From positions 1 through 21,720 of the IMG/VR virus record IMGVR_UViG_3300005647_000023: a DNA stretch of 21,720 nt; one strand, written 5' to 3'. This DNA is from a virus. A program made the position numbers and the translations under genes. Positions 2,504 to 18,416 of this stretch are shown piece by piece. Each line of letters opens with the position of its first letter. Position 1 is the first letter of the stretch. The notes beneath the pieces were generated by a model that saw only the letters and a program-made list of their open reading frames with translations, did not search any database and was not told where the DNA came from.

Positions 2504-3019
2504 ATGATATTATTATTATCAGGAGCAACACATAAGGATGCTCAACAATTAGACCTAAATAGAAGTCTTGGTGGATTAGTATCTTCTACTCCAGTACCTA
2601 ATGGTAGGATGAATGGTTTGTTTTCAGATGTATCAAATTATACTGTTGCTAATAATTCGTCAGAAATAGTAGGTATTTTTCTTGTGAATAATACTTCAAA
2701 TGATTTAGCGAATTTATCTATTCAAGAAATATATGAGGATGATAACATATGTGAATTTGAATTTGCAGTAGTATCTGTTACGGATAGTGGAGCTATGGAA
2801 TTAATTGGTAGTAAATTTGAAGAGCCTTATTATGCTAATTGGTTCGAGCCTATTGATAAGACTTTAATTAAAGAAATCTTTAAGTCAGGTGAGATGATTG
2901 GTCTATGGATAAAAAGAACTATAATCAAAGAAAGTGAAGAAGTTTCAGAATGTTTACCAGCTGATTCAGTTAATAAAAATATAGATGAGTGCTTGGAAGT
3001 TATTTTTAGCCACGATTAA
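2504..3019 (+). CDS. Hypothetical protein, probably structural
   Basis: A 171-residue protein I do not recognise. The start lies 3 bases after the stop of the tail fibre gene, so the two are almost certainly co-transcribed, and a strong terminator follows 33 bases downstream. The sequence is acidic overall. It has a glycine-rich start (LLLSGATHKDAQQLDLNRSLGG), a beta-like middle (EIVGIFLVNNTSNDLANLSI) and a C-terminal part with an EEPYYANW segment. Position alone suggests a tail or baseplate accessory protein, or an assembly factor for the fibre; that is inference. No catalytic motif, signal peptide or membrane segment is visible. Confidence 0.7.
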   Translation: MILLLSGATHKDAQQLDLNRSLGGLVSSTPVPNGRMNGLFSDVSNYTVANNSSEIVGIFLVNNTSNDLANLSIQEIYEDDNICEFEFAVVSVTDSGAMELIGSKFEEPYYANWFEPIDKTLIKEIFKSGEMIGLWIKRTIIKESEEVSECLPADSVNKNIDECLEVIFSHD

Positions 3020-3051
3020 CCACATATTTGGTGTGTAATCTTTTTGGTAAG

Positions 3052-3087
3052 AGCCTTAAACTAAAAATTTAAGGCTTTTATTATTTT
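3052..3087 (+). terminator. Rho-independent terminator after the structural block
   Basis: A perfect 9-bp stem AGCCTTAAA / TTTAAGGCT (3052-3060 with 3068-3076) closes a 7-base loop and is followed by TTTATTATTTT. It lies 33 bases after the stop of the 171-residue gene and separates the structural genes from the replication genes. Confidence 0.85.
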
Positions 3088-3340
3088 AAAGATTTTATCA
3101 GCTTAAAACTCATGTAATGAGATTATCGTTTAAAAATTTTTCATAGTTAATTCTAAATGTGTTAAATGCGCTGCATTCTTTTTTGAGGGTTTGGTGAGTG
3201 CGCAGCAGCCTCAATTCGATGGGAATATTCCTTTTGATTGTTATAAGGTCATAAACTTCTTAATGTGTTACAATGTTTATTTGTCTCGCATAAGAGGGTT
3301 TATGTTTTTATGACCTTAATCTTCTGGGAATAATAATATA
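3088..3340 (+). promoter_or_regulatory. Structured non-coding leader between structural and replication blocks
   Basis: This 253-base stretch holds no credible gene. It contains CTCAT-gta-ATGAG (3109-3121), a near-50% GC patch at about 3167-3232 within otherwise very AT-rich DNA, a TTGAGG/CCTCAA pair (3183-3188 with 3209-3214), a TGCGCA palindrome (3199-3204), a GGAATATTCC palindrome (3222-3231) and a 12-bp inverted repeat at 3244-3318. The helicase gene starts directly after it. Possible roles are a structured 5' UTR, a small RNA, an operator region or an origin. No convincing promoter hexamers or Bacteroidota TAnnTTTG element was found in it, so the promoter for the replication block is not identified. 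Confidence 0.5.
3244..3318 (+). repeat. 12-bp inverted repeat with competing inner pairings
   Basis: TAAGGTCATAAA (3244-3255) is the exact reverse complement of TTTATGACCTTA (3307-3318), with 51 bases between the arms. The inner part of the left arm, CATAAAC (3250-3256), is also complementary to GTTTATG (3298-3304), and its ATAAAC to GTTTAT (3275-3280). The RNA could therefore adopt mutually exclusive folds. The right arm ends 22 bases before the helicase start codon. Confidence 0.7.
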
Positions 3341-4906
3341 ATGATGATAGAGATAACAAGAACATCTTTTAATAGAGCCAAATTTACAGGAAAGTCCAAA
3401 GAGACAAAGCATATTAAGCGTCTTTTGAAAATTTGGGTAGATGGAGCTCAATATTCACCAAAGTACAATGAGACTGACAAATATGGAAGACGAAGATGGG
3501 ATGGATATTTTAGATTTTATAATTCAGATAATGAATTCGATTGGGGTATTGTAGATGAAATAATGTATCATTTAAAGTCTAAAAAAATAAATTTTACTGT
3601 TCACGATGATTCAGGAATAAAATTCATAAAAAAGATAAAAACAAGAGATACCTTACGTCCACACCAGAACAGAGCAGTAAAAAAATTCTTCAAAAATAAC
3701 TTAGGTATAACAATAGTACCAACCAGAGGTGGTAAAACTTATATAGCATCTGAAAAAATAAGATTAGCTATGAAAAATGATGAAAATTTAGTGTCATTGT
3801 TTCTTGTAGATACAATAGATTTATTTAATCAGACCTTAGAAGAGTTTTCAGGTTATTTTGGAATAGAACAATCTGAAATAGGAACTATAAATGATAAAGG
3901 TGTGAATATAAAACAAATTAATGTTTGTATGATACAGTCATTAGTTTCTAAGATGTATCCTGCTAAACGTAAAACAGATACAAGAGAAAAAATACGTGAA
4001 AGGAATAGAACTACAAGACAGATGAGAAAATTTCTTCATTCTGTTAATTTTCTAATCGTAGATGAGATACAAGAATATTCATCATCTAAACGTATGAATT
4101 GTTTAAAAGCATGTAAAAATGTCACTTTCTTATCAGGACTTTCTGCTACACCATTTAAAGATGAGGATGAAGACACTACCAAAAATGTAATACAAAATCT
4201 AAAAATAAAAGCGTTTTTTGGAGGAATTGTATATTCAGTACCTATATCAGAATTGCAAGAACAAGGCTATCTTGCTTTAGATAAGGCTATATTATTTAGC
4301 TATAATCATGAATATTATAAAATTGATAATAGAGTTAATGAAGATGATGGATATCATTCGTTATTAACTCAACTCATACATGAAAACAAAGAGCGTAATA
4401 AAATATTGATAGATTTTATAAGGTTATGTAGAAAAAATAAGTGGAAGACACTTGTATTATTTAATTCTAAGAAACATGGTAGAATTATATCAAGAAAAAC
4501 AGCTCAACCATTTATATGTGGAGATGATAAGTCAGATGTTCGTAAGGCTGCTAAAGACAAATTTTTATCTGGTAAAGGTAAGATACTATTAGCGTCAAAT
4601 ATATACAAAAAAGGGATAACTTTACCAGAGGCAGAAATACTTGTATTTGGAGATGGTGGTTTAGAGGGTAGTAATGTTACTCAGAAAAAAGGTCGTGTGC
4701 TTGGAGCTGTAGATGGTAAGACTAGAGCAATTATAGCTGATATAATGGATATTGAAGATAAATATTTTTCCAACCATAGTTATAATAGATTGAGAGTTTA
4801 TGATGAGGAAATTGGTCAGGATAGAATTGAAATTCACGAGCCGACTGATATGAAAGATGTAGAAGATAGTATCAAAGAATGGTTAGATGAGAAAAAAGGA
4901 ATTTAA
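3341..4906 (+). CDS. uvsW: UvsW-like SF2 DNA helicase
   Basis: A 521-residue superfamily 2 helicase, probably the counterpart of T4 UvsW, which unwinds branched DNA and R-loops and shifts the phage from origin-dependent to recombination-dependent replication. In order: a small N-terminal domain (1-100), a TLRPHQ motif (104-109), the Walker A motif PTRGGKT (127-133), a DEIQ Walker B box (241-244) in place of DEAD/DEAH, the SAT motif (268-270), and the motif VI element QKKGR (448-452) in the second RecA-like lobe. Length matches T4 UvsW (about 500 residues). Two ATG codons are tandem at the start; the first is used here. It is the first gene after the structured leader and overlaps the next gene by 20 bases. 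Helicase family is certain; the specific UvsW role is inferred from architecture and neighbours. Confidence 0.88.
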   Translation: MMIEITRTSFNRAKFTGKSKETKHIKRLLKIWVDGAQYSPKYNETDKYGRRRWDGYFRFYNSDNEFDWGIVDEIMYHLKSKKINFTVHDDSGIKFIKKIKTRDTLRPHQNRAVKKFFKNNLGITIVPTRGGKTYIASEKIRLAMKNDENLVSLFLVDTIDLFNQTLEEFSGYFGIEQSEIGTINDKGVNIKQINVCMIQSLVSKMYPAKRKTDTREKIRERNRTTRQMRKFLHSVNFLIVDEIQEYSSSKRMNCLKACKNVTFLSGLSATPFKDEDEDTTKNVIQNLKIKAFFGGIVYSVPISELQEQGYLALDKAILFSYNHEYYKIDNRVNEDDGYHSLLTQLIHENKERNKILIDFIRLCRKNKWKTLVLFNSKKHGRIISRKTAQPFICGDDKSDVRKAAKDKFLSGKGKILLASNIYKKGITLPEAEILVFGDGGLEGSNVTQKKGRVLGAVDGKTRAIIADIMDIEDKYFSNHSYNRLRVYDEEIGQDRIEIHEPTDMKDVEDSIKEWLDEKKGI

Positions 4907-5477
4907 ACTTGTTGTAGAATTATACAAGACTTACTATAAACAGATAACTAAAAATGAAGGCTTCAGATTATATATGTCTGATAGTCGAGCCAAGATGGTT
5001 GATAGGTTTTTAGATAATTTTCTTGAATTAACTCAATCTACATTTATTCAAGAAGATGCTCTCAAGAAATTTATGGAATTTCAATTTAATTATTGGTATA
5101 AACGTAATGCTAAATACGGTGCAGGAACTTCTATACAGTTAGAGTGGATAATTGGTAAGAAAGCTATTGTAAGGTGGGAGAAAGCCAATAAGAAGTATAT
5201 TAGCTGGATAATACGTAAGAATTTAAAAACAGACCATAAAATTGTGGTTAAAAATACTGATAATTCTTATGCTAATTTAGTAGTTAGATTAAATGATGTT
5301 GAAGAAAAAGAAAAAGAACGTGCTCACAATACTGTAAAAGGATTTTGGAACTGTTTAATAAATACCACATTATACAACCACAAAAGCAGTCTATGTGTAA
5401 GTTGTGATAAGTCTATGGGTTGTAAAGAAAATTTAAAAATTAAGTTTCCAAAGATATATAAAAAAAGAGGATATTAA
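4887..5477 (+). CDS. Hypothetical protein with C-terminal Cys cluster
   Basis: A 196-residue basic protein of unknown function. Its start lies inside the end of the helicase gene (20-base overlap) and its stop overlaps the next start (TAATG), so it is translated as part of the replication operon. Residues 1-110 look helical and rich in Tyr, Trp and Lys, with a WIIGKK...W pattern near 87-106. A CVSCDKSMGC cluster (C170, C173, C179) near the C-terminus, with C156 upstream, could bind zinc or an Fe-S cluster. The protein ends in a lysine-rich segment. DNA or nucleoprotein binding is a reasonable guess from charge and context, but no family is recognised. Confidence 0.75.
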   Translation: MRKKEFKLVVELYKTYYKQITKNEGFRLYMSDSRAKMVDRFLDNFLELTQSTFIQEDALKKFMEFQFNYWYKRNAKYGAGTSIQLEWIIGKKAIVRWEKANKKYISWIIRKNLKTDHKIVVKNTDNSYANLVVRLNDVEEKEKERAHNTVKGFWNCLINTTLYNHKSSLCVSCDKSMGCKENLKIKFPKIYKKRGY

Positions 5478-6022
5478 TGGATAGTTTGTTTAAAAATTTC
5501 GGTAAAAGATATAATAGAAATATGTCTGGATTAGAAGTAGCTAAATTGATAGGTACATCCAGAACCATATTATACAAATTCCTTAGAGAACAAAACATAT
5601 TCTGTAAAACAAATGGGCGTAATTTACCTACAGATATTTATATGCGCAAGAAGTGGTTTTTTATAAAAGAAACTAATGTAGATAATGAAAATTTTAAAGG
5701 TATAGTTACTACTACAATGTTCACACCTTTAGGATATGAAAGCATAAGAGATATCATATACAAAGACCATGATAATATAATACATACTTTAAATAATGAT
5801 AGTTTTTGGGTAGTCCTTGCTAATAAAATTAGGTCAAAGTTATCTTATTTAGGTCGAGATTTTAAGACCGATAATGAGCTTGAAGAACATATGAAAAAAC
5901 ACTCATATTTATTCACTCATGGAGAAACTAATAATAAAAGCGTATTCTACTTTGCTAATGATAGAAAGTATGAATTGATAAAATTTAATGTAGATAATCT
6001 ACGAATATTTGAAACATGTTAA
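5477..6022 (+). CDS. KilAC-like (phage antirepressor C-terminal) DNA-binding protein
   Basis: A 181-residue protein. Residues about 16-95 match the layout of the KilAC/ANT domain that forms the C-terminal half of many phage antirepressors: an HTH-like LEVAKLIGTSRTILYKFLRE (19-38), then NLP...MRKKWFFIKE, and a final TTTMFTPLGYESI strand-turn (79-90). The usual N-terminal Bro-N or AntA domain is absent; instead the unit is followed by about 85 residues of unfamiliar sequence. The start overlaps the previous stop by one base (TAATG), and an AGAGG lies 6 bases upstream, one of the few Shine-Dalgarno-like sequences here. It lies inside the replication operon, between the UvsW-like and DnaB-like helicases, so a DNA-binding role in replication or its control is inferred. 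The domain call is by pattern only. Confidence 0.65.
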   Translation: MDSLFKNFGKRYNRNMSGLEVAKLIGTSRTILYKFLREQNIFCKTNGRNLPTDIYMRKKWFFIKETNVDNENFKGIVTTTMFTPLGYESIRDIIYKDHDNIIHTLNNDSFWVVLANKIRSKLSYLGRDFKTDNELEEHMKKHSYLFTHGETNNKSVFYFANDRKYELIKFNVDNLRIFETC

Positions 6023-9772: not shown

Positions 9773-10867
9773 ATGGCAAAGAAAGCTAAAAAAGTTGAAA
9801 AACTTACAAAAGAACAAGTAAAAGACCTTAAAACAATAGGTATTAAGGCTAAGAGCGTAGAAGATGCTAGAAATCAAATGATCGAATTTCTTGCAGAAAA
9901 TGACATCGAAGATGTTAATGATGATCCGTTTGATGAGTTATTTGATATGTGCTCTGTAATGTATGAAGACTCTGAAGAAGAGATGGATGAAATGGTTGAA
10001 GAAGAGGACGCAGCTGAAGATGAAGACGAGGACGAGGACGATGAAGATGAAGATGAAGATGAAGACGAAGATGAAGACGAAGATGAAGACGAAGATGAAG
10101 ATGAAGACGAAGACGAAGATGAAGATGAGGACGATGAAGATGAGGACGATGAAGATGAAGATGATGAGGATGAAGATGATGAGGATGAGCCTGCTCCAAA
10201 GAAAAAATCTTCTAAGTCAAAAGCAAAGCCTGTTAAAAAATCAGACAAAAAAGCTGACAAGAAAGCTGCTAAAAAGAAAACACGTACTAAGCGTTTGAAT
10301 CCTAAAGAGAACAAGGATGATGCTGCAAGATACGATGTGGTTCGTGAAGCATTAGAAAATTTAGGTGAATTTATTTTCAACTTCATTGCTAATGGTGGAG
10401 TGTCTGTAAAATATAAAGGTAAAAATAGCAACAAAGTATTCTTTAGCTATGATTCACCTAAATTAGATGCTGACGGTAATATTACTGGTAGAGTTTATTT
10501 ATCTTCAGTAAAAGATGAAGAATTACTTTATGAGTTATTCGGTGATGAAATAGAAATCAAGAAATCTTGGTCTGGAAATCTTCTTGTAGTAGATACTCCA
10601 CTTGAAGACTTAGCTTCTGCACTAACTAATAATGCAGAAGCATTTGAGAAAGTGCTTGTAGGATTAGGTAAAAAAGATGAGAAGTTAGGCAAAAACCGTG
10701 ATAAGATGGAAAAAGACCTAAAAGCTACAAAAAAGGCTAAAGCTACTGCAAAAAAGTCTAGCAAGAAAGCTAAAACTGAAGAAGTTGTAGAAGAGCCTAA
10801 AAAAGCTTCAAAAAAGTCTAGCAAAAAGACTTCTAATAAAAAGAAGTCAAAGAAGTCTAAAAAGTAA
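9773..10867 (+). CDS. Acidic/basic low-complexity protein with unknown folded core
   Basis: A 364-residue protein built of blocks: a Lys-rich start, a short folded segment (about 10-65), an uninterrupted Asp/Glu run (82-139, 58 residues), a Lys-rich linker starting EPAPKKKSSKSK, a folded core of about 130 residues (184-310; RYDVVREALENLGEFIFNFI... then a beta region) and a long Lys/Ser/Ala tail to the end, like histone H1 tails. The core is not recognised. A charged polymer of both signs suggests a nucleic-acid or nucleoprotein partner, a chaperone-like role, or a DNA-mimic function. The A-rich leader lacks a Shine-Dalgarno sequence. A terminator follows 21 bases after the stop, so the gene may be a highly expressed transcript end. 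Its charged tail resembles that of the ssDNA-binding protein encoded at 17226. Confidence 0.8.
   Translation: MAKKAKKVEKLTKEQVKDLKTIGIKAKSVEDARNQMIEFLAENDIEDVNDDPFDELFDMCSVMYEDSEEEMDEMVEEEDAAEDEDEDEDDEDEDEDEDEDEDEDEDEDEDEDEDEDEDEDDEDEDDEDEDDEDEDDEDEPAPKKKSSKSKAKPVKKSDKKADKKAAKKKTRTKRLNPKENKDDAARYDVVREALENLGEFIFNFIANGGVSVKYKGKNSNKVFFSYDSPKLDADGNITGRVYLSSVKDEELLYELFGDEIEIKKSWSGNLLVVDTPLEDLASALTNNAEAFEKVLVGLGKKDEKLGKNRDKMEKDLKATKKAKATAKKSSKKAKTEEVVEEPKKASKKSSKKTSNKKKSKKSKK
10016..10189 (+). repeat. Asp/Glu-coding microsatellite-like repeat
   Basis: 174 bases encode 58 consecutive Asp/Glu residues using GAT/GAC and GAA/GAG only. Much of it is a degenerate 12-base unit of the form GATGAAGACGAA, with later GATGAGGACGAT variants. 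All unit changes keep the reading frame in multiples of three, so length can vary without frameshift. Confidence 0.9.
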
Positions 10868-10888: not shown

Positions 10889-10920
10889 AAAGCCTCATTA
10901 ACATTGAGGCTTTTTTTTTA
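10889..10920 (+). terminator. Rho-independent terminator after the acidic protein gene
   Basis: A 9-bp stem AAAGCCTCA / TGAGGCTTT (10889-10897 with 10905-10913) with a 7-base loop runs directly into a tract of T. It lies 21 bases after the acidic gene's stop and ends the transcript before the thymidylate synthase gene. This is the strongest terminator in the window. Confidence 0.92.
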
Positions 10921-10970
10921 TTTTATCATAGTTATATCTAAAAATTAATAATAAACGAATTTCAAAAATT

Positions 10971-12156: not shown

Positions 12157-15100
12157 ATGACAAAAGATTTTAAAAATTGGTGTGAGTCAAATTCTATTAG
12201 TTATTCTAAGTCTAAAGAGGGATTTTGGGAGATTAATGATTTTGGATCATTCATATTTGTAGATGATAAGGAGGGCAAATTATTAGATGACGTATTCCTC
12301 ATAATCCTTACAGAAAAAGAGCAAGAGATTGTAGAAGATCAAAAAGTTGATTTTATAGTTTATAAATGGGGCACTAGATTTTTCTATACTTCTACTAAAG
12401 AAACTGATAAAAATGAATACAATGAGATAGGTGTTAAGTTGAAATTAAATGACTTTAAGAATATTGGAAAATATGAACCTATTGTAGATGTAGATTTTGT
12501 TAATTTAGGAGTACATACAGGATACGAATTATTGAATGGGAGTTGTGAAGCATTTCAATATGCTGATAAAGCAAAATACTTAGGTCATGATAGTTTAGGA
12601 TTAGCTGAAAAAAATACATTAGCTGGAACAATTGCATTTCAAAGTGCTTGTCTAAAAAACGATATCAAGCCAGTATTAGGATACACCGTATCAGTTGCTT
12701 ACAATTATGACCCTGAAGCAGAAAATCAAGAATTATTTGATTTAAAGTTCTACGTAAAAAATGAACAAGGTTGGAAAAATGTTCTACGTATGAATAAGGC
12801 TGTCAATGTAGATAATGAAGGGTTTTTAATAAAAGAAGATATTAAGTCATTTTCGGATGGTTTAATATGTGTATTTCCAATGGAAAGTTACTTTCATAAG
12901 TTTATATATCAAAAGAAAAATTCAGTCAAAGAAATCAAGGAATTTAAGTCTATATTTAAAAAAGACCTTTATTTCCAGATTGATCTTTCAGAATTTATAG
13001 ATGATGGCATAGACATAGATAGATTGAAAATTATACGAAAGTATATGAAATCTTATTCTAAAATGATAAAACCTGTATATATTTCAGATGCTTATTATGT
13101 GGATGAAATAGATAGTGAGGTTAAAGGTATATTAAACAGCATAGACAGGAAAGCTAATCCAAAATCTTCTGATCAATACTTAAAAACTATAGATCAAATA
13201 TTCGATAAAAATATTAGCCTTTTTGAATCAAATGATAGGAGTCTGTCTATATTTCTGGAATCAATAGATAATACTAGAATTATATCAGATGCTTGTAATT
13301 ATCAGATTGATACAGGAAATCATAAATTACCTAAATTTGAAGTAAAAGACCCAATAGAACTTTACAATGATTTACTAGCAGAAGCATTTGAGAAAAAAGT
13401 TATAAATAAAGGATTAGATGTAGAAAAATATTGGTCAAGACTTGAAGAAGAGAATGAGGTGATTGTAGGTGCAGGTTTTGTAGATTATTTTTTAATTTTA
13501 TGGGATGTTATAGAATATTCTAAAGCTAATGATATATTAGTTGGAGTAGGTCGAGGATCAGCTGGAGGATCACTTGTAGCATATCTATTAGGTATTATAG
13601 AGATAGACCCAATTGAATATAATTTATTATTTGAGCGTTTCTTGAATAAGACACGTGTATCTGGAGAACGTGCTAAAGCTGCAGATGCTTTGCCAGATAT
13701 TGACTTAGATTTTGAAGGTAAAAAAAGAGATGAAATAAAGCGTTATATAGAACATAAATATGGTTCAGATCATGTGTGTTCTATTGGTACTTTTAATAGG
13801 ATGAAAGTGAAATCAATTATTAAAGATTTTGCTAGAGTTTTAGGAGTTTCTTTTCAGGAAGCAAATTCAATCACAAAAAAGATTGATCCATTCGATAAAA
13901 AGGTTGCTAAAGGTTTACCATATGAAGATATTTTCGATTGGGCTATGAAAAATAAGACCTTAAAGGCTTTTGTTCAAAAACACATAGATTTATTCGAGTT
14001 AATAAAAGCTCCAATGAATCAACAACGCTCATCTTCTATACACGCATCTGCCGTAATTATAACACCAAAAGAAGATAAACAAGGAAATCCAATGACTATA
14101 TATGAATGGATGCCTGTTCGTAAAATAGATGGAGTACTTGTATCAGAATGGGAAGGCAAATATATAGATAAGGCTGGATTTTTGAAAGAGGATATTCTTG
14201 GAATAGCTCAATTAGACAAGTTCAGAATGACTTTAGAACTTATAAAAGAAAATATTGGAGAAACAATAGATTTGAATGAAGTAGATACTAAACATAAAAA
14301 AACTTTTAAGACTTTCCAAAAAGGAATGAATGAAGATGTTTTTCAGTTTGGTACTGGAGGTTTGAAAAAGTATTCTATAGAGGTTAAACCTACTGAAGTA
14401 GAAGATTTAATATCAATGAATGCTTTGTATAGACCTGGACCAATGAAGTCTGATGCTCATAATGATTTTGTTAGAATTAGACGTGGTAGAAAAAAGGCTA
14501 AATTTGATATAGGTATGGAAGTCGTAACAGAGAAGACTTTTGGATTATATGTATATCAAGAACAGGTTATGCAAGCTATGGTGGTTGGAGGTATGACTCT
14601 ATCAGAGGCAGATCAAGTTAGAACTTATATGAAAAAATTTGATGATAAAAGCCTACAAAAATTCAAAAAGAAGTTCGTGAAAGGATATTCAAAAGTAGTA
14701 GATGGTAAAGTCAAAAAACCTAAATCATATGCTACGGAAGTTTGGGATAAATTATACCAGTTCTCAAGTTATGGTTTCAACAGGTCTCATGCTGCAGCTT
14801 ATAGTGTTATGGGATATTGGAGTCAATGGTTAAAAGTAAATTACCCATTAGAGTTCTGGACAGCTTCATTAAATTTCGTAAAACATCTTGAAGATTTTCC
14901 AAATAGAATTTCTGAGATGAGGAAGTTAACAAAAATTAAAGTTGCTCCACCAGACATAAATAAGTCCGATATATATTTTACATCAGATACAGAAACTAAT
15001 AATATATATTGGTCATTTGAACAAATAAAACAGGTTGGTCCAGCATCTGCAGCAGCAATATTGAATGAGCGTAAGGAAAATGGTCAGTTTTATGATATGG

Positions 15101-16361: not shown

Positions 16362-16659
16362 AGATTTAGTAAACAAATTAGAGCAATCTAATAGATCAAA
16401 ATATGGAGATAAAAGTCATGATCAAATATCTCAAAATTATAGAGTTTCTAAGCAAAAAGGAGATGTTTGGTGTTCTGAAAATGTTAAGAGATATTTAGAT
16501 AGATTTACTAGACCTGGATCAAGCAAAGCTAATAATTTAACAGACCTCTATAAAGCTAAAGATTATTTACAAAGAATGATCGATGCTAATGAAGAGATAG
16601 GTATTGATACCGAAACAAATGAGGTTATAGAAGATTTTAAAGATGGCGAAAAAAAGTAA
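16354..16659 (+). CDS. Small DUF3310-like protein
   Basis: A 101-residue protein. Residues about 38-78 (DVWCSENVKRYLDRF...NLTDLYKAKDYLQRMID) follow the pattern of DUF3310, a small helical phage domain often found beside nucleotide-metabolism genes (usual form: GNxxKYxxR, then DLxKAxxYL). The match is by pattern and is incomplete at the N-terminus, where the usual HY motif is not clear. The C-terminus is acidic. It overlaps the nucleotidase gene by ATGAGTAA and the next gene by 17 bases, so it is translated in the same operon. Function unknown. Confidence 0.6.
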   Translation: MSKDLVNKLEQSNRSKYGDKSHDQISQNYRVSKQKGDVWCSENVKRYLDRFTRPGSSKANNLTDLYKAKDYLQRMIDANEEIGIDTETNEVIEDFKDGEKK

Positions 16660-17185
16660 ATTAGTTTTCAATCTTGGAGACAAAGTAGTAAAGTTTACAG
16701 TTCAAAATTTCGATAAGAATGTAGAGATTGATAAACTTTTAAAGATAGATTATGGTAATTTAGTAGCTGAATTAGTCACATTTCCAGTAGTAGTAAACAA
16801 ATTAGGTTTATTGGCAGCAGAGATGGATAATGAAGTACAAATGGCTAAATTAAATTTATCTGTTACAGAAGCAAAATTAAAGGATAAGATACGTAAGCAA
16901 TTAACATTTTCTGATGATAAAGGTAAACGTAAAACACCTACTATATCAGAAGTGGATGATGCTTTGACCAGAAATAAGTTATGGATAAAAAAGAAGTCTG
17001 CTTACATAACTACTATGAAAGAGAAAGAGTACATGTACTCTATATATGAATCAGCTAAAGATAAGTCAAGAAAATTAGACAAACTTAGCCTTACTTTAAG
17101 AGCTGGAGATATTGATACTGATTTAATACAAAAGCAGTTGAATAATGTATATTTTAAAATCAAAGATGGTTTTATAAAAGATTAA
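16643..17185 (+). CDS. Hypothetical helical protein, possible UvsY-like recombination mediator
   Basis: A 180-residue, mostly helical, basic protein with a beta-like start (KLVFNLGDKVVKFTVQNFDK). The middle is a long helix (LLAAEMDNEVQMAKLNLSVTEAKL), followed by a PTISEVDDALTRN turn and a second long helix ending with LDKLSLTLRAG. This helix-turn-helix layout is like that of UvsY-type proteins, which load UvsX onto ssDNA covered by SSB. The gene stands directly upstream of the SSB and UvsX genes, as would suit such a job. The identity is inference from layout and context; no diagnostic motif was found. It overlaps the previous gene by 17 bases and is followed by 40 bases of A/T-rich leader. 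Confidence 0.55.
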   Translation: MAKKSKLVFNLGDKVVKFTVQNFDKNVEIDKLLKIDYGNLVAELVTFPVVVNKLGLLAAEMDNEVQMAKLNLSVTEAKLKDKIRKQLTFSDDKGKRKTPTISEVDDALTRNKLWIKKKSAYITTMKEKEYMYSIYESAKDKSRKLDKLSLTLRAGDIDTDLIQKQLNNVYFKIKDGFIKD

Positions 17186-17225: not shown

Positions 17226-18416
17226 ATGTCAAATTTACGTAAGAAATACGCAAAAAAGGTCACTAAGCTAAAAGACCTTGAAGAAAAAAATAGTCAAGAC
17301 GATGCTAACATAGGTTATTCTGGAGGTAGCGACTACCTTGAAATAACAGATGGTAAGACTAACAAATTTAGATTATTTCCAGCTCACGATGGTCCAGACT
17401 TCTTTAAATTAAGAAAAAGATATTGGGTTACCATTAATGGGGATGATGGAGATGCTAAAAGAACTGTATTAGATGCTAGAGTTCATGGTGGAGCAAAAAG
17501 AGACATAATCGATGAGTATGTTAAATTTGCTAAAAAGAATGTTAAGGATAATGATATATTATCTAAAATAACTCATTGGAAAGATGGCTTAACTGCAGAA
17601 CATTCTTGGATAGCTTATGCTGTTAAATTAACTAAAAAAGAACGTGAATTTGGTTTACTATCTTTTAAAAAGACAGTAAGAGATGCTATAAATAAAGCCA
17701 TATTTATAGAGTCAGATGATGAGCCGATAGAAGTTGATCCATTTACTCATCCAGACGATGGTTTACCTTTACTTGTAAAATATAATAGTAAACCTAACAA
17801 GAAAAAAGGTGAAGACTATTATGATGTTCAAATAGGTCGTAGAGCTGTAGAATTAACAGATGAAGAACTTGAGAAGCACGATGCAGCTAAGTCTTTAGAT
17901 GAATTGTTCGACAATGTATATACTGTAAAAGATTTTGAGCTTGCATTAGATGCGCTTGAGAAATTTGATATAGATAATGAAGTTGATATCTTTGAAGACG
18001 ATAGATGGTTAGAGTTAGTTCAAGAAATTAGAGATTTGTTAGGTGACGATGAAGACGATGAAGATGAAGAGCCTAAGAAAAAATCTAAAAAGAAGTCTAA
18101 AAAAGTCCAAGAAGATGAAGATGAAGATGAAGACGAGGACGATGAGGATGAGGACGAGGACGATGAGGATGAGGACGATGAGGATGAGGATGAGGATGAG
18201 GATGAGGATGAGGATGAGGATGAGGATGAGGATGAGGATGATGAAGATGAAGACGATGAAGACGATGAAGACGATGAAGACGATGAGCCTGCTTCAAAAA
18301 AGAAGTCTAAGAAATCTAAAGACAAAAAGAAGTCTAAAGATAAGAAATCTAAAGACAAAAAGAAGTCTAAGATGTCTGTTGATGACATAAGAACAAGACT
18401 ACGTAAAAAGAAATAG
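17226..18416 (+). CDS. gp32-like single-stranded DNA-binding protein with long charged tail
   Basis: A 396-residue protein. The first 270 residues look like the phage ssDNA-binding family: a basic start, an OB-fold-like core with NKFRLFPAHDGP (46-57), an aromatic/basic KLRKRYWV strand (61-68), and VDPFTHPDDGLPL (170-182) followed by a DYYDVQIG strand. It should coat ssDNA at forks and recombination intermediates and recruit helicase, polymerase and UvsX. An acidic C-terminal tail is typical of SSBs, but here it is extreme: 59 Asp/Glu in a row (296-354), bracketed by Lys-rich segments (EEPKKKSKKKSKK before; EPASKKKSKKSK after) and ending in a basic RTRLRKKK. Ordinary SSBs end acidic, so the basic terminus is odd. 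Its stop is TAG, the only one seen. A hairpin follows 26 bases later. Confidence 0.8.
   Translation: MSNLRKKYAKKVTKLKDLEEKNSQDDANIGYSGGSDYLEITDGKTNKFRLFPAHDGPDFFKLRKRYWVTINGDDGDAKRTVLDARVHGGAKRDIIDEYVKFAKKNVKDNDILSKITHWKDGLTAEHSWIAYAVKLTKKEREFGLLSFKKTVRDAINKAIFIESDDEPIEVDPFTHPDDGLPLLVKYNSKPNKKKGEDYYDVQIGRRAVELTDEELEKHDAAKSLDELFDNVYTVKDFELALDALEKFDIDNEVDIFEDDRWLELVQEIRDLLGDDEDDEDEEPKKKSKKKSKKVQEDEDEDEDEDDEDEDEDDEDEDDEDEDEDEDEDEDEDEDEDEDDEDEDDEDDEDDEDDEPASKKKSKKSKDKKKSKDKKSKDKKKSKMSVDDIRTRLRKKK
18111..18287 (+). repeat. Asp/Glu-coding repeat with a perfect (GATGAG)10 tract
   Basis: 177 bases encode 59 consecutive Asp/Glu residues. Inside it, 18177-18236 is ten exact copies of the hexamer GATGAG, a true microsatellite, flanked by GATGAGGAC and GATGAAGAC variants. 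Copy number can change by slippage in steps of two residues without breaking the frame. Confidence 0.92.

Follow-up and report, generated by a model that had tools for sequence, protein, structure and literature searches.

A conserved structured RNA element, and candidate new RNA family, at the start of a phage replication operon

What fills the long gap between the tail genes and the replication genes of a compact phage genome, and does the cluster of palindromes within it belong to DNA or to RNA? The DNA analyzed here (the window) is a 21.7-kb phage fragment (21,720 nt), in which the larger genes all lie on the + strand. Its structural (tail) operon is closed by a hairpin resembling an intrinsic terminator, and such a hairpin was also found at the equivalent place in two relatives, G001 (IMGVR_UViG_3300029585_000037, 93.9 kb) and G002 (IMGVR_UViG_3300033553_000165, 96.9 kb; helicase approximately 54% identical). 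Beyond a gap of about 320 bases, which is large for so compact a genome, a UvsW-type superfamily 2 DNA helicase gene (approximately 27% to annotated UvsW-like helicases by tblastn) opens a run of replication genes encoding a DnaB-like helicase, a primase, a sigma factor, a thymidylate synthase-like protein, a DnaE-type polymerase, a RecA-like protein and SbcCD; the names thymidylate synthase-like and RecA-like are our own reading of the sequence. By homology with G001 and G002, the ATG at 3344 is the more likely start of the helicase gene; two ATG codons stand in succession at 3341-3344. Another strong intrinsic-terminator-like hairpin with a T-run (10889-10922; site 10889-10913) is found within the replication run, before the thymidylate synthase-like gene. 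The DnaB-like protein is nearest to those of Chryseobacterium phage MA9V-3 and of Bacteroides phage DAC16 and its relatives, which makes a bacterium of the Bacteroidota the most likely host. The 94 kb of G001 contain just 30 upstream gaps that reach 40 nt, and the gap corresponding to the one described here (about 320 nt) is among the largest.

Table 1. Features at the boundary of the structural and replication genes, in window coordinates
Feature	Position	Strand	Basis or remark
Tail protein and 171-aa protein	to 3019	+	5' of the terminator-like hairpin
Intrinsic-terminator-like hairpin with T-rich tail, closing the structural (tail) operon	3048-3085	+	13-nt arms 92% complementary; tail by direct reading
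Domain A, hairpin P1, 11 bp with one bulge	3167-3207 (arms 3167-3178 and 3196-3207; loop 3179-3195)	+	Fold of isolated segment
R1, first direct-repeat copy, CCTCAATTCGATGGGAATA	3209-3227	+	R1/R2 similarity
Domain B, long hairpin	3226-3332	+	P5 3226-3232/3326-3332; P4 3244-3252/3310-3318; P3 3253-3267/3287-3301
R2, second direct-repeat copy, 3' strand of part of P4 and of P5	3314-3332	+	R1/R2 similarity
UvsW-type superfamily 2 DNA helicase, first replication/recombination gene	3344-4906	+	PHROG 16, E=3e-52

A GC-rich, non-coding stretch before the helicase gene

The original prediction described a GC-rich element with several palindromes at 3167-3318, and the motifs that it named are all in place: TGCGCTGCA at 3167, TTGAGG at 3183, TGCGCAGCA at 3199, CCTCAA at 3209, GGAATATTCC at 3222, CATAAAC at 3250, GTTTAT at 3275 and 3298 and GTTTATG at 3298. 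The local enrichment is real, with 49.2% GC in the best 65-nt window of the element and a mean of 29.5%. Moreover, 3168-3232 is the sole GC peak in the window outside repeats; the only other equally GC-rich stretches are in two acidic-repeat genes (9976-10070 and 18104-18246). As had been proposed, the element is non-coding, with no frame conserved among the window, G001 and G002, and lies directly 5' of a replication operon that begins with the helicase. A small leader peptide was rejected as a candidate: a GTG frame at 3194 stays open in the window, but in G001 it runs into a stop codon after three codons, and in G002 the frame is different.

The 12-bp inverted repeat 3244-3255/3307-3318 is exact (12/12), and at least one 12-bp repeat with arms no more than 100 nt apart arose in 0.75% of dinucleotide shuffles of the gap. 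Across the whole window, there are 7 overlapping matches for 12-bp inverted repeats where 0.6 are expected, and therefore the inverted repeat alone is not decisive. It is the folding scores of domain B in three phages, together with conservation, that place the element above chance. The best bounds of the element are 3167-3332, and conservation begins near 3145; relative to the original prediction, the 3' end moves from 3318 to 3332. Within these bounds lies an imperfect direct repeat (R1 and R2, Table 1) that the original prediction did not contain.

Fold and conservation in two relatives

In domain A, the segment folded in isolation takes the shape of P1 as its minimum-energy structure in the window, G001 and G002. 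The P1 loop (14-17 nt) is U-rich and carries GAGGGUU, in the form UUUUU(G)AGGGUU... One G-C to A-U change and one G-U to A-U change distinguish P1 in the window and G001, and both arms are rewritten in G002. An invariant AGCCUCAA directly follows domain A. Domain B has 37 pairs in the window and 38 each in G001 and G002, with a 3' bulge of 7-8 nt at the equivalent place in all three (8 nt, 3302-3309, in the window). Folding z-scores for domain B were -6.7, -7.2 and -8.9 on the + strand and -4.7, -4.1 and -5.2 on the - strand (window, G001 and G002, respectively), a difference that is due to the 3-8 G-U pairs per hairpin. The + strand folds far better, which argues for an RNA transcribed in the same sense as the helicase gene.

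Base changes in the helices are suggestive of compensation, as read from the alignment and not from a formal test. In G002, six pairs of P5 are kept, five of them with changes on both sides, and P4 has one double change, with the G002 register of both helices aligned by hand. RNAalifold reported double changes in 7 of 34 pairs for the three sequences, a statistically weak signal from three members of which two are close. The check proposed for the original prediction was an alignment of the same gap in related phages, and both conservation and apparently compensatory changes were present, the opposite of what would have refuted it. G002 has two further features that were not seen in the window: domain A is preceded by an additional strong hairpin, AGAAGUU...AACUUCU (minus strand, approximately 2572-2534 of the piece searched), and the element as a whole may be enclosed by a closing helix, AGUUUAG/CUAAACU.

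The element is 93% identical between the window and G001, whereas identity is 80% over the remainder of the gap and 78-86% over the adjoining genes. In G002, a 481-bp gap at the equivalent place holds a rewritten element of the same shape. A covariance model built only from the window and G001 found the G002 element at this syntenic site (39.8 bits, E 2.3e-7 in 212 kb), whereas a sequence-only model from the same alignment did not find it at E<=10. Structure therefore picks out a distant homologue at the syntenic site where sequence alone fails, as a conserved structured RNA should, and we consider the existence of such an RNA very likely. On this evidence 3167-3332 is one RNA element, conserved, structured, non-coding and transcribed in the sense of the replication operon, instead of an assortment of separate palindromes.

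The covariance model gave no further match at E<=1 in approximately 1.05 Mb of other sequence, including the whole of a third genome, G003, and most of MA9V-3, and the model searches of G001 and G002 found the element once per genome. Pattern scans of IMG/VR and GTDB genomes returned real matches in G001 and G002 only, the others being inside genes or unrelated; 57 loci from the last scan were screened with the covariance model. When GenBank phages were searched with the element at the nucleotide level, the matches were all due to chance, and a search of Rfam 15 with the window yielded none above a family's gathering threshold, the best sub-threshold hits being chance matches to eukaryotic snoRNA or miRNA (E>=0.25). 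Two apparent copies were rejected as chance: one in G001 at 29.8 kb, which lies within a gene, and one in MA9V-3 at 32.7 kb (E 0.005), which is short and AT-rich. The element defines a candidate new RNA family of three members, two of them close.

The element is not tied to the helicase gene throughout. G003 has the helicase (37% identical) with just 36 bp at the junction and no element; therefore, the helicase gene does not need the element. MA9V-3 has neither, its gene order being tail, 171-aa, 196-aa and DnaB, without helicase and leader (compared with window positions 2504-6022). With both lacking in MA9V-3 and the helicase alone in G003, the junction corresponding to 2504-6022 is one of step-wise gain or loss.

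Other RNA features were observed elsewhere in G001. At approximately 36.5-36.9 kb, a phage tmRNA (RF00023, 67.5 bits; 16570-16918 of the piece) stands right after a tRNA (16475-16547), whose anticodon was read by ARAGORN as two bases. At 54.03-54.25 kb, another strongly structured gap of 219 nt (mfe -0.41 per nt; 14033-14251 of the piece) with CCTGATAAGG...TTGAAA repeats is found just 5' of a holin-like/amidase lysis region; no Rfam match was found for this gap.

Direct repeats and alternative pairings

By shuffling, the similarity of R1 and R2 has p values of approximately 0.003 in the window, 0.0004 in G001 and 0.006 in G002, despite changed sequence. From the window to G002, the change from GGGAAU to CUCAAG affected R1, R2 and their common partner strand alike. 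The two repeats compete for this one middle strand, M (3226-3250), and the competition is kept in all three phages; it is a conserved feature with a putative function. The R1:M pairing is weak, at -6 to -7 kcal/mol versus -33 to -41 kcal/mol for domain B, and is not better than shuffles in the window and G001; the G002 hairpin has a z-score of -2.55. Because R1:M is weak, it could matter only during transcription. The CCTCAA of R1 could alternatively pair with UUGAGG in the P1 loop (3183-3188). The resulting H-type pseudoknot, perfect in the window and G001 and bulged in G002, would be sterically awkward with the full 11-bp P1 and is not claimed here.

In the original prediction, the element resembled a switchable leader RNA in which the left arm of the inverted repeat paired with two inner sequences. 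The place, structure and covariation support a leader RNA; the switch by these pairings is not supported. When pairing of 3251-3256 with 3275-3280 was forced, the fold was approximately 15 kcal/mol worse in the window and 17 kcal/mol worse in G001. Pairing with 3298-3304 lies approximately 1 kcal/mol from the consensus register and merely slides the bulge; this pairing has the lowest energy in the window but not in G001, and it is not kept in G002. Moreover, the hairpin and the start codon are 11 nt apart in the window and approximately 58 nt apart in G002, and since this spacing is not conserved, direct occlusion of the start is unlikely. A riboswitch or attenuator is thus not indicated, the alternatives being either some 15 kcal/mol worse or a sliding bulge, with a start spacing that is not conserved.

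Possible functions and known systems

Taking into consideration the terminator on its 5' side, the long operon on its 3' side, its + strand structure and its conservation, we infer that the element is the 5' leader of the replication operon after the structural-gene terminator, transcribed from a promoter just upstream and acting in cis. No promoter motif was recognised when the Bacteroidota -7 motif and enriched 7-mers were checked. In all three phages, domain B has the features of an RNase III-type structure, with about two helical turns of double strand and an asymmetric bulge (37-38 pairs and 7-8 nt). By analogy, domain B (about 37 pairs, bulged) may be an RNase III-type processing stem or a 5'-protecting stem, which would separate the replication message and set its stability. 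Domain A, with P1, its conserved loop and the CCUCAA strand, could be a protein- or RNA-binding module that tunes the domain B stem, and R1 might briefly hold the 5' strand of domain B during transcription until R2 is made. This cis-acting leader or processing element is our preferred reading, and as a whole mechanism its chances are somewhat short of even.

A free-standing small RNA, made from its own promoter or cut from the leader and acting in trans on host or phage, would fit two compact domains that are conserved above the genes and that sit between a terminator and a new operon. It is unlikely, given that none of the three phages has a terminator or terminator-like U-run 3' of domain B and that the element adjoins the helicase in all three.

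The element could instead remodel RNA polymerase as an RNA-hairpin antiterminator, so that the operon is read past internal terminators. The HK022 put RNA is a pair of hairpins that directs antitermination, and a structured leader before a long one-strand operon with a terminator-like site inside (10889-10913) would suit such a role. Antitermination directed by an RNA hairpin in the leader of an operon is an established mechanism, as in the dfn hairpin bound by LoaP (PMC12691694). However, no NusG/LoaP-type protein (PF02357) was found in G001 or G002 with positive controls, which speaks against a LoaP-type leader with a phage-encoded partner (a host NusG paralogue could take this part), and the element occurs just once per genome. 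We regard antitermination as rather unlikely. Equally speculative, and not to be expected on present evidence, is a new kind of leader RNA in Bacteroidota phages that would control the replication switch without a dedicated phage protein, either by modification of the host RNA polymerase or by R1-to-R2 strand exchange, with the UvsW-type helicase as its main target.

A ligand- or factor-sensing switch, in which competition of R1 and R2 for 3226-3250 would alter operon expression, appears doubtful. The repeat similarity that persisted through the GGGAAU to CUCAAG change with its complement and the z-score of the G002 R1:M hairpin favor it, but R1:M is far weaker than domain B and in two phages no better than shuffles, the output end has no terminator or sequestration of the start site, and the alternative pairings of the original prediction fail.

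The transcript could also prime replication as an R-loop, as at T4 oriF and oriG, and be removed later by the adjacent UvsW-type helicase. The gap stands at the start of the replication genes, with an AT-rich stretch 3' of the GC-rich patch, and T4 UvsW unwinds origin R-loops (PMC3016281). T4 origins, however, consist of a promoter and an AT-rich unwinding element and are not defined by a conserved folded RNA (PMC3016281), and G003 carries the helicase without the element. Cumulative GC skew is monotonic in G001 and G002 and, with almost every gene on one strand, uninformative on the origin. An origin at this site is improbable.

A double-stranded DNA element, either a cruciform or the repressor operator that the original prediction had offered as an alternative, is suggested by the 12/12 inverted repeat and by the GGAATATTCC palindrome in the window but is highly improbable, as the G-U pairs are strand-specific, the + strand folds much better in all three phages and neither G001 nor G002 keeps the perfect palindrome.

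To our knowledge, little is known of regulatory RNA in Bacteroidota phages. The element is compact and testable, has defined helices and sits where the structural genes give way to the replication genes; should it process or control the message for replication, it would offer a way into how these viruses time their early-to-late transition.

Among known systems, the HK022 put and LoaP-dfn hairpins resemble the element as structured leaders ahead of a long operon, put being likened by description; unlike dfn, P1 has a loop of 14-17 nt and no UNCG tetraloop, and no LoaP/NusG-like phage protein was found. T4 oriF/oriG with UvsW likewise tie a transcribed region to replication and a UvsW-type helicase, with a promoter and unwinding element in T4 versus a conserved fold, known from sequence, in the phages analyzed here. 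The retron ncRNA (msr-msd) also has one or more short hairpins followed by one long hairpin, and the possible closing helix of G002 may be a further likeness; however, no reverse transcriptase (PF00078) was found in G001 or G002, and the adjacent gene encodes a helicase. Y RNA associated with Ro is not indicated either, as TROVE (PF05731) was absent from G001 and G002 with a positive control. For a type III toxin-antitoxin RNA, in which tandem pseudoknot repeats accompany a ToxN gene, PF13958 gave no match, with its control silent as well, and the element has no tandem array.

For the preferred reading, the T7-type RNase III hairpins provide the comparison. The R1.1 substrate, which lies between genes 1.0 and 1.1 of T7, is a hairpin of 60 nt whose internal loop is asymmetric (4/5) (PMC6121014). 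Domain B is likewise a long hairpin with a bulge, in which the unpaired bases lie asymmetrically, and it too stands between blocks of genes in a phage genome with one coding strand (PMC6121014); the element, which is RNase III-type in structure, is longer, adds another conserved domain as well as a direct repeat, and comes from another phage lineage and host phylum. A screen of the HMP2 microbiome has reported candidate structured RNAs from Bacteroidetes that lie between genes and close to those of phages (PMC8040213); judged by description, the element is like them in being structured, intergenic and near phage genes in this group. The element represents a new candidate family, matching none in Rfam 15, of a known kind, the structured leader or intergenic RNA of phages.
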